From Candidatus Accumulibacter aalborgensis (GTDB lineage: Bacteria; Pseudomonadota; Gammaproteobacteria; Burkholderiales; Rhodocyclaceae), in assembly GCF_900089955.1 (NCBI RefSeq), contig NZ_FLQX01000170.1:1-39844 (forward strand): 39,844 nucleotides of DNA, read 5' to 3'. Shown piece after piece: positions 1 to 10,115 of this stretch; within the stretch, counting starts at the first letter, position 1; the number at the start of each line of letters is the position of its first letter. Under the pieces are notes generated by a model. That model worked only from the letters and a program-made list of their open reading frames with translations. It made no database searches and was not told where the DNA came from. The position numbers were made by a program, and so were the translations under genes.

Positions 1-371
1 CACCAAGCCTTGCTGCCCATCAAAACCGTCTGGGTCTATCCTCTCGACCGTCACTTCAGACGGGTCCTCTGCGCATGAACACGTCGTTCCACCACCCATC
101 CCACTGCATACACGCCCGCGCTTATTGAGAAGTTACTTCAACGTAACTTAACGTATTGATTTGTAACGATTCACGACTCATGGCGAATTCGTAAAATATC
201 GATACAATCAATTTGTTAGATTCTTAAGTCCGACAGGCTCCTAGAGGCGCAGCCACTCATCCAGTAAAGCGCCCGTAGCGAAGCGAAATACGGCAATATT
301 TCGTTCTACTAGGGAATCGCGGTCTGTCCCTCATCGCGGAGCTTTGCCGGGGTTTTCGCGGCGACGCGGCA
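1..371. other. Non-coding, AT-richer flank
   Basis: No convincing gene is visible. A reading frame open at the left edge runs to a TGA at 76-78 on the plus strand (25 codons) and could be the tail of a gene lying outside the window, but it has no recognisable motif. Positions 125-235 are clearly AT-richer than the rest of the window and contain a small inverted repeat (AGTTAC...GTAACT). One short palindrome at 273-293 is listed separately. No clear T-tailed hairpin was found for the minus-strand genes that end at 372. Confidence 0.5.
273..293. repeat. Short palindromic element with GCGAAGCG core
   Basis: CCGTA (273-277) and TACGG (289-293) form a perfect inverted repeat around a loop carrying GCGAAGCG. 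The same core occurs in the loop of the palindrome at 10375-10401, and a close variant (CGCGAAGCG) in the hairpin at 18147-18161. This resembles REP-type intergenic elements, but a family assignment needs a genome-wide comparison. Confidence 0.35.
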
Positions 372-7851: not shown

Positions 7852-8739
7852 TCATGCCTGCCTGACCTGTCCTGCGACCGGTGCTTGTTCGCTGCCCTGG
7901 CTGCCTTGGCTACCCCTGCGCCGCTTGTAACGGTTGTAGCCCCAGAGGTACTGCTCCGGGCACTGGCGAACGAGATGCTCGATCTCGTGGTTTATCTGCT
8001 GAGCGCGCTGCTCGATCGTACCGCTGATCGCTTGCGTCGGTTGCTGCAGGTGAAAATGGTAGCCTGCACCAGCCGGCAGCCGTTCGCCCCAGATCATGAT
8101 CACGCTGGCGCCCGTGTCGACCAGTCGTGCGGCAAGTGTCATCGTGTAAGCCGGCCGGCCGAAGAAGTCGAGCCAGCGACCGTCGCCCGCCCTGGGCGCC
8201 TGGTCGGGCAGCATGCCGACTGCTTCTCCCCGCTTGAGTGCCTTGAGCAAGCTGCGCACCCCCGACACATCGGCCGCCGCCAGGTGAAGCTGCTCCCGGG
8301 CGCGACCGACTTCGATCATTTCCTGCAGCCAGCGCCGCTTCGGCGGGCGGTAGAGGACGGTGATCGGCGCCTGCGTCGACAGATACTGCGCGGTGACTTC
8401 GAAGCAACCCAGATGCGGCGTCAGGTAAAGGATTCCCTTGCCCTTGCGGGTAGCGGCTTCGACCAACTCCCAACCGGATACCTTGACGACGCGAGCCGCC
8501 GACTCGGTCAGTGGCCGCAGCCAGATGCGCGGCAGTTCGAGCATGCCCTTGCCGGCTTCGCCGATCGCCGCTGCCCGCAGACGCGTGGCATCGGCCTCAC
8601 CGAGGGCATGAACCATGTTGGCGCGCATGTTTCGGCGGTAGGTCGGCGACAGCAACCAGGCCAGCCAGCCGAGCAAGGCACCGACAAGGTGCAGCCAAGA
8701 CAGCGGTAAACGACTGCAAAGACGAGCAAGGGTAATCAC
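7852..8739 (-). CDS. Lipid A late acyltransferase (LpxL/HtrB family)
   Basis: A 295-residue membrane-bound acyltransferase that adds a secondary fatty acid to lipid A. The HX4E catalytic motif is present as HLGCFE (H109, E114), and there is one N-terminal hydrophobic segment (residues of about 12-31) typical of LpxL/LpxM. The start codon is GTG at 8739 with no clear ribosome binding site. The C-terminus ends in a basic stretch (RYKRRR) and a low-complexity GSQGSQGS tail. It is the first gene of the LPS operon and is divergent from metK, with about 210 bp between them. Whether it is LpxL or LpxM is not decidable here. Confidence 0.87.
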   Translation of the reverse strand: MITLARLCSRLPLSWLHLVGALLGWLAWLLSPTYRRNMRANMVHALGEADATRLRAAAIGEAGKGMLELPRIWLRPLTESAARVVKVSGWELVEAATRKGKGILYLTPHLGCFEVTAQYLSTQAPITVLYRPPKRRWLQEMIEVGRAREQLHLAAADVSGVRSLLKALKRGEAVGMLPDQAPRAGDGRWLDFFGRPAYTMTLAARLVDTGASVIMIWGERLPAGAGYHFHLQQPTQAISGTIEQRAQQINHEIEHLVRQCPEQYLWGYNRYKRRRGSQGSQGSEQAPVAGQVRQA

Positions 8740-8772
8740 AGACGAGTCCAGTGGCGGCAGTGGCGAGAAGGT

Positions 8773-8802
8773 TTGACCATTGGGCAGCAGAAAAACTATA
8801 AT
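8773..8802 (+). promoter_or_regulatory. Sigma-70 promoter of metK
   Basis: TTGACC (8773-8778) and a perfect TATAAT (8797-8802) are separated by 18 bp. Transcription would start near 8809, giving a leader of about 140 nt before the GTG start of metK. The predicted start lies exactly at the first stem of the structured leader, which supports both assignments. Confidence 0.75.
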
Positions 8803-8809
8803 TATCGCT

Positions 8810-8882
8810 CCGCCGAGTTAATCAGGACAACTTGCAGGGCGGGCAGCGCCGCATTCAGCGGCCACTAAATACTGCTAAAGCG
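8810..8882 (+). promoter_or_regulatory. Candidate SAM-II-type riboswitch aptamer in the metK leader
   Basis: Possible pairing and conserved-looking bases fit a SAM-II-like pseudoknot with a long loop. CCGCC (8810-8814) pairs with GGCGG (8838-8842). The loop carries UUAAUC and ends in CUUGCAG. GCAG (8834-8837) can pair with CUGC (8872-8875). The 3' part reads ACUAAAUACUGCUAAAGCG, like the AUAAAU...GCUAAA core of SAM-II. A small hairpin, GCCGC (8848-8852) with GCGGC (8858-8862), would sit in the connecting loop. The gene downstream makes SAM, which fits feedback control. This was matched by eye from memory of the family and has not been tested with a covariance model. Confidence 0.5.
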
Positions 8883-8894
8883 TCGTCTGCTCGT

Positions 8895-8934
8895 ACCCCG
8901 GAGCCGGCAACGCCGCTGTTTCGGGGTTTTTTTT
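8895..8934 (+). terminator. Attenuator-type terminator in front of metK
   Basis: ACCCCG (8895-8900) pairs with CGGGGT (8922-8927), with an inner stem CGGC/GCCG, and eight T follow directly (8927-8934). The terminator ends just before the ribosome binding site GGAG (8935-8938). CAGCGGC at 8856-8862 is fully complementary to GCCGCTG at 8912-8918 inside the hairpin, giving a possible antiterminator. In read-through RNA, GTCTGCTC (8885-8892) can also pair with GAGCAGAC (8936-8943) and cover the ribosome binding site. Confidence 0.7.
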
Positions 8935-8948
8935 GGAGCAGACCCAGC

Positions 8949-10115
8949 GTGAGCAAAGAATTCCTTTTCACTTCGGAATCGGTTTCCGAAGGCCATCCGG
9001 ACAAAGTCGCCGATCAGATTTCGGACGCCATCCTCGACGCCATCATTGCCGACGACCCGCCGGCCCGGGTGGCCTGCGAAACGCTGGTATCGACGGGTCT
9101 GGTCGTCATTTCGGGTGAAATCACCACCAAAGCGCACATCAACTATCGCGAGATCGCGCAGGACGCCGTGCGTCGTATCGGCTACAACGACTCCGAGATC
9201 GGCTTCGACTACAAAAGCTGCGCCATTCTGACAGCAATCAACCGTCAGTCGCCGGATATCGCGCAAGGGGTCAACGAGGGCCAGGGTCTCGACCTCGACC
9301 AGGGCGCCGGCGACCAGGGGCTGATGTTCGGCTATGCCTGCAACGAAACGGCGTCGCTGATGCCGCTGCCGATCCACTACGCACACCGGGTCATGCAACG
9401 CCAGGCCGAGGTTCGCCGCGATGGCCGCCTGCCGTGGCTGCGCCCCGATGCCAAGAGCCAGCTCACCGTCAGATATGCGGACGGCAAACCGGTGTCGATC
9501 GACACGATCGTCGTGTCCACGCAGCACGACCCCGATGTCTCGCACGCCCAGATCTCGGAAGCGGTCATCGAAGAGATCATCAAGCCGGTTCTGCCCAAGG
9601 AACTGCTCACCGCCGCCACGCGCTATCTGGTCAACCCTACCGGCCGCTTCGTGGTCGGTGGCCCGCACGGCGACTGCGGTCTGACCGGTCGCAAGATCAT
9701 CGTGGACACCTACGGCGGCGCGGCCCGGCACGGCGGCGGCGCTTTCTCGGGCAAGGACCCGTCGAAGGTCGACCGCTCGGCCGCCTATGCGGCGCGTTAC
9801 GTGGCCAAGAACATCGTCGCCGCCGGTCTGGCCGAGCGCTGTGAAGTCCAGGTGGCCTACGCCATCGGCGTCGCCAGACCGGTGTCGCTGATGGTCAACA
9901 CCTTCGGCACCGGCAAGGTCAGCGACGAGGTCATCGTCGATCTGATCGGCAGACACTTCGACCTGCGTCCCAAAGGCATCATCCATTCGCTCGATCTGCT
10001 GCGCCCGATCTACCGGAAGACCGCCGCCTACGGCCACTTCGGCCGCGAAGAACCCGAGTTCACCTGGGAAGCGATCGACAAGGCAGCGACGCTGCGCGCT
10101 GAAGCGGGCCTTTAG
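8949..10115 (+). CDS. metK: S-adenosylmethionine synthetase
   Basis: MetK makes S-adenosylmethionine from methionine and ATP in the cytoplasm. From the GTG at 8949 the protein has 388 residues, the normal length, and begins [22 protein letters not shown] in family style. The reading frame is open further upstream, but that part runs through the terminator and leader and is not coding. Signatures include GEITT, the GYACNET-type motif ([17 protein letters not shown]) and the glycine-rich loop [22 protein letters not shown]. The ribosome binding site GGAG is 10 bp upstream. The gene stands alone, with its own promoter, a structured leader and a strong terminator behind it. Confidence 0.97.

Follow-up and report, generated by a model that had tools for sequence, protein, structure and literature searches.

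SAM-II riboswitches were noted in beta-proteobacteria by Barrick and Breaker 2007 (PMC2258182), and tandem SAM-II arrays as well as SAM-II/SAM-V pairs are known (PMC9481103). In the crystal structure of SAM-V, as described in PMC6061858, U47 pairs with the adenine of SAM, the triple U20:A48.U9 lies around the sulfonium, U19:A49.U10 forms the next triple and the aminoacyl end is held by A50. U47 receives a hydrogen bond from an N-H of U8, A18 pairs with A50, and a hairpin P3 is present in SAM-V and absent from SAM-II (PMC6061858). The SAM/SAH riboswitch (RF01727) is a small pseudoknot found consistently before metK in Rhodobacterales (PMC2864571), and the metXZ element of Leyn et al. 2014 is a betaproteobacterial pseudoknot with a terminator before metX or metZ (PMC4239095). 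According to the latter study, no regulator of metK is known for beta-proteobacteria (PMC4239095). A comparison of the long 5' UTRs of Burkholderia cenocepacia with Rfam names a SAH riboswitch and, in the text available, nothing for metK (PMC4603805). In the literature consulted, mostly open-access texts, we found no description of a betaproteobacterial metK leader such as the one analyzed here.

This leader lies in a window of 39,844 nucleotides (the whole stretch of DNA that was analyzed) from Candidatus Accumulibacter aalborgensis. Most probably it is an OFF riboswitch that senses SAM through a diverged aptamer of the SAM-II/SAM-V group. Like the SAM/SAH riboswitch it is a small pseudoknot before metK, but the window gives no Rfam match to that family and the core of the metK leader is that of SAM-II/SAM-V. 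With the metXZ element it shares the betaproteobacterial host, the pseudoknot and the terminator; however, that element was reported before metX and metZ and not before metK (PMC4239095). Compared by description rather than by letters, the metXZ element is probably the SAM-II copy that we see before metX and metZ.

Architecture and conservation of the metK leader

The features of the locus, all on the + strand, are as follows.

8773..8802, + strand: sigma-70-type promoter, -35 box TTGACC (8773-8778), -10 box TATAAT (8797-8802), 18-nt spacer
8809-8814 with 8838-8843, + strand: helix P1, fully paired in the window
8815..8819, + strand: third strand GAGUU
8826-8828 with 8882-8884, + strand: helix P2a, GAC with GUC
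8834-8837 with 8872-8875, + strand: pseudoknot helix P2
8848-8852 with 8858-8862, + strand: hairpin P3 inside the pseudoknot, placed as P3 of SAM-V
8874..8879, + strand: GCUAAA
8880-8892 with 8901-8913, + strand: predicted antiterminator, 11 of 13 positions paired
8885-8892 with 8936-8943, + strand: predicted RBS-masking stem, 8 of 8 pairs
8896..8934, + strand: intrinsic terminator, stem 8896-8926, U8 at 8927-8934
8935..8941, + strand: Shine-Dalgarno (SD) sequence GGAGCAG, from sequence
8949..10115, + strand: metK, GTG start codon, SAM synthetase

All three S-AdoMet synthetase Pfam domains of the metK product score above cut-off; the gene makes SAM, as a sequence-only reading of this DNA had stated. 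That reading had also proposed a near-consensus promoter with a start at about 8809. The promoter boxes match 11 of 12 consensus positions; the -10 box TATAATTAT is kept in 28/28 metK leaders of the genus and both boxes (TTGAC-17..20-TATAAT) in 27/28. From the promoter position, transcription is expected to start at about 8809, which is the first base of P1, giving a leader of 140 nt (8809-8948). A blastn search of plasmid sequences with 8760-8960 returned no match.

The aptamer core was present in the metK leader of all 28 genus genomes searched, our own genome included. In other genera, 15 of 31 fetched first-copy metK leaders (L034-L064) carry the core. The covariance model likewise matched neither the 16 core-less leaders nor two metK loci that are second copies (L065, L066). 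G042 (metK match at a contig end) was left out of the leader set and G029 had no metK match. We aligned 31 leaders, 16 from the 28 genus members and 15 from other genera. With P1, P2 and P2a arranged as a pseudoknot 98.0% of cells are paired, compared to 28.4-61.0% with slid partners, and five pairs vary on both sides. The covariation score was reached in 0/500 shuffles and the number of further pair types in 8/500.

A larger alignment of 102 matches (99 distinct rows) gave a similar picture: 95.4% of cells in P1, P2 and P2a are paired versus 27.5-55.1% with slid partners, and 10 of 13 pairs vary on both sides (155 cells), with 0/500 shuffles reaching this on all five measures. All six pairs of P1 vary on both sides, a count that leans towards the model since the alignment was fitted to a model with P1 and without P2 or P2a. 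In P2 two of four pairs do so (32 and 8 of 99 rows). P2a varies little: two of its three pairs change on both sides, in a handful of rows. The compensatory changes expected of related metK leaders are thus clearly found, and on this comparative evidence we regard the pseudoknot as real and conserved. Every pair of P1, P2 and P2a is formed in the window. The SAM-II-like pseudoknot had been placed at 8810-8882; its fold stands and its limits shift, with the aptamer ending at 8884 rather than 8882 because P2a uses 8882-8884.

The hairpin suspected within the aptamer loop is present as P3. Lying between P1 and the 3' strand of P2 as in SAM-V, it folds better than mononucleotide shuffles (p<0.05) in 25/28 genus leaders. 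Its length is variable, some genera are without P3 and several leave no room for a hairpin. Folding of the whole leader is only modestly above chance (z -2.45, with 2/200 shuffles equally good); the strong evidence is the covariation.

Relation to SAM-II and SAM-V

Comparison of the window with Rfam returned no match at gathering, and a search of 8700-9000 up to E 10 returned no SAM, SAH or SAM/SAH family and no SAM-V, for which we take the library to include a model. On this ground we rejected an identity as SAH, SAM/SAH or Rfam SAM-V riboswitch. Rows for NsiR1, asX2, Hrs1 and ZFAT-AS1_1 were likewise discarded, as they score far below gathering; three of them overlap the terminator. Among 13 sister metK loci, RF00521 (SAM-II) aligned below threshold in one, where the whole SAM_alpha model is covered (L052, 21.4 bits; gathering 36), and 20 further metK loci of other genera also yielded one such alignment (L163, 22.8 bits). 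These two low counts speak against the reading as a SAM switch. In the reverse direction R1, a covariance model derived solely from metK leaders, detects the SAM-II copy in 26/26 RF00521 loci given to it (worst E 0.047); these are the 30 loci fetched minus L194, L213, L216 and L218, whose core could not be placed by a simple motif search. The proposed covariance-model scan therefore came out negative for Rfam as it stands, but positive in that the L052 leader aligns with the whole of SAM_alpha below threshold and R1 finds SAM-II.

The genome itself also contains a near-canonical SAM-II copy with a terminator before metH (G000:C116:27613-27688, - strand; L001/L097). It scores 35.7 bits with RF00521, close to the gathering score of 36, and 28.8 bits with R1. 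Of the other RF00521 rows in this genome, L002 has an E of 0.049 and L003-L005 (E 2.5-5.7) were set aside as chance level.

The metK leader has the SAM-II pseudoknot of P1, P2 and P2a, at the spacing of the SAM_alpha alignment of L052, together with the CUUGC and GCUAAA core, which is invariant in 102/102 rows except for the C of CUUGC (101/102). As with SAM-II, met genes lie downstream, and the metK-only model finds both. The differences are a score below the Rfam threshold of 36 bits (21.4 and 22.8 in the best sister metK leaders) or no detection at all, a third strand reading GAGUU in the window and in most metK copies where SAM-II has GAUUU, a P2a of GAC/GUC next to AA and GC, the extra P3 hairpin in this genus, and the position before metK. 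Because of the Rfam threshold and the GAUUU letter we did not file the leader as plain SAM-II. With SAM-V it shares the letters of core and pocket and the location of the P3 hairpin; it differs in lacking an Rfam SAM-V match, in its host range, and in having a terminator and a predicted antiterminator, whereas SAM-V is described as translational (PMC6061858). The aptamer is best called SAM-II/SAM-V type, as a putative diverged variant of the group.

Distribution, downstream genes and the predicted ligand pocket

Of 399 genomes drawn from the order, R1 matched 247 at E <= 0.01, a number that mixes the variant with true SAM-II as R1 also catches SAM-II copies. Across the phylum 25/299 genomes matched at E <= 1e-4; 17 of them belong to the order and the remaining 8 to a single further family of the same class. 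The downstream gene was checked for 115 matches, namely 114 from the order search by R1 and the metH copy of the own genome; loci L084, L091, L094 and L095 and further R1 matches in the order were left out of this check. metK follows in 74 (72 identified by blastp, and two, L088 and L120, by tblastn). In 28 the gene encodes a small protein that starts with MYDC or MFDC, and in 13 there are other genes, including metZ (L173, L174), metH (L097) and RelA/SpoT-like genes (L141, L144). A search of named genomes with an exact pattern gave at least 117 stretches. Among the matches listed, metK lies within 300 nt downstream in 93 and MYDC in 13; four stretches end too early, and seven have no assigned gene. 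The organisms include Cupriavidus, Achromobacter, Bordetella, Polynucleobacter, Dechloromonas, Thauera, Limnobacter, Chromobacterium and Vogesella. Judged by these matches, the element is widespread before metK in many betaproteobacteria and is missed by Rfam.

The MYDC/MFDC protein has about 100 aa (e.g. L092, L102, L107, L196) and no evident link to SAM; its presence behind 28 of the 115 matches counts against a SAM switch. It gave no Pfam match (three tried) and no NCBIfam match (two tried). A MATE-transporter-like frame follows its gene in 26 loci (one representative identified). We further observed the variant before a RelA/SpoT-like protein (L141, L144; L141 identified), before one gene common to three loci (L090, L100, L108) and, outside the order in family f55 of the same class (L346-L353), before a protein of about 106 aa (two tried) that resembles MetW or methyltransferases weakly and below cut-off. 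At L203 and L209 a SAM-II copy above the Rfam threshold stands before metK in place of the variant, as if exchanged. The L079 locus has, about 1.3 kb beyond the variant, a SAH riboswitch (2835-2953; RF01057, 42.9 bits) that follows metK and precedes the next gene. SAM_alpha copies were also found in tandem with the variant: in at least 14 places one lies 16-273 nt upstream of it in the same orientation. Where the gene behind these tandems was identified it is MYDC (ten places), and L085 has another gene.

We compared the SAM-contacting letters of SAM-V with the alignment. The equivalents of U9, U10, U19, U20, U47 and A48-A50, which by alignment correspond to U8818, U8819, U8832, U8833, U8876 and A8877-A8879 of the window, are invariant in 102/102 rows; part of this invariance is due to selection, because the rows were found with the model. 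Where SAM-V has A18, 101/102 rows have C, in agreement with the SAM_alpha consensus. At the position of U8, 59/66 metK rows carry G (G8817 in the window) and 7 carry U; among 24 MYDC rows, 13 have U, 10 have G and one has a gap.

This U-to-G change beside the adenine-binding U raises the question of whether the same fold may serve another ligand of the SAM cycle, such as SAH, decarboxylated SAM or methylthioadenosine. Consistent with such a change are the contrast between G in 59/66 metK rows and GATTTG in 26/26 listed SAM-II copies, the SAM_alpha copies directly upstream of the variant, and the existence of changed-ligand variants, as SAM-I variants bind spermidine (PMC10853860). However, the spermidine variants have changes in the letters that touch SAM or surround the sulfonium (PMC10853860), and here these letters are invariant. 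In the L079 genome, moreover, SAH is already sensed by its own riboswitch behind metK, for the next gene. U8 of SAM-V only donates its N-H to U47. Since G also offers an N-H donor and the MYDC copies use either letter, SAM is expected to stay the ligand, and we consider another ligand unlikely. It is similarly doubtful that the variant represents an aptamer class of its own, built on the SAM-II scaffold, in which U-to-G gives another ligand or affinity. If it did, the SAM_alpha-plus-variant tandems would read two signals, and the signal governing metK would differ from that for metX, metZ and metH in the same cells.

Competing structures between aptamer and start codon

Returning to the SAM-sensing reading, we investigated the pairings between aptamer and gene. 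Both the terminator with eight U, formerly read at 8895-8934, and the stem covering the ribosome binding site were recovered. The antiterminator is different: the pairing suggested previously, 8856-8862 with 8912-8918, was rejected. A run of 7 pairs exists in the window alone of 28 genus leaders (one other has 6, the rest 4-5), and own partners are no better than permuted ones (1841/5000). The conserved pairing is instead 8880-8892 with 8901-8913. Across 44 mutually divergent leaders, this antiterminator has a mean of -15.1 with own partners compared to -13.0 with permuted ones (0/5000 permutations as good). The part behind GCGUC taken alone is less clear (-8.5 versus -7.8; 70/5000). The largest difference was found for the SD mask (-13.4 versus -9.0; 0/5000). 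Shuffling single leaders gave a weak signal, with p<0.05 for the antiterminator in 37/103 and for the SD mask in 52/103 leaders; the p values for the window are 0.075 and 0.040, respectively.

The antiterminator overlaps P2a at 8882-8884, the terminator at 8901-8913 and the SD mask at 8885-8892; these three structures have no paired bases in common among themselves. As the antiterminator excludes all three, ligand should push all three to OFF. The comparison of related leaders supports the predicted pseudoknot, antiterminator pairing and SD mask, as well as the exclusion of the other three structures by the antiterminator. In the proposed mechanism, 8880-8892 would pair with 8901-8913 soon after synthesis when ligand is missing; the antiterminator would block the terminator and keep the anti-SD strand off the SD, so that metK would be transcribed and translated. 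With SAM bound, the pseudoknot would hold GUC 8882-8884, the antiterminator could not form and the terminator would form, and in read-through RNA the freed strand 8885-8892 would mask the SD. We infer SAM as the ligand, the OFF direction and the operation of both steps in the cell. When growth of the RNA from 8876 was computed without the aptamer, the antiterminator gave the best fold at the 3' ends tried between 8914 and 8923, and from 8926 on the terminator took over. Once complete, the terminator exceeds the antiterminator in stability (-21.6 versus -16.1), and ligand-free read-through must therefore depend on timing.

Termination signals are distributed unevenly. GGGG followed by at least four T occurs in 24/28 genus leaders, and a run of five T, counted without requiring a hairpin, in 18 of 21 distinct genus leaders versus 23 of 82 distinct leaders of other genera. 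From the latter number, translation control looks general and termination regional. Together with the strongest covariation being that of the SD mask, it would also suit a switch in which SAM is sensed, the terminator is incidental or constitutive and control lies in the SD mask. In the genus, however, the T runs are the rule and the antiterminator directly excludes the terminator, which makes a purely translational switch quite improbable here. The idea of dual control is supported by the related sequences, and the best reading is that both transcription and translation are controlled in this leader and mainly translation in many other genera.

Biosynthetic operons are known to have attenuators that operate through a leader peptide or through an RNA-binding protein, and the metK leader could in principle be such an attenuator rather than a ligand switch. 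However, 8809-8948 contains neither ATG nor GTG (two TTG occur), so there is no obvious leader peptide, and the invariant core is that of SAM-II/SAM-V. We regard an attenuator of this type as very improbable.

In summary, if many of these lineages have a SAM switch in front of metK, the regulator gap left by Leyn et al. would be filled, and the SAM-II/SAM-V group would extend beyond what Rfam detects. Within a leader of 140 nt, a single antiterminator would simultaneously exclude an aptamer helix, a terminator and an SD mask.
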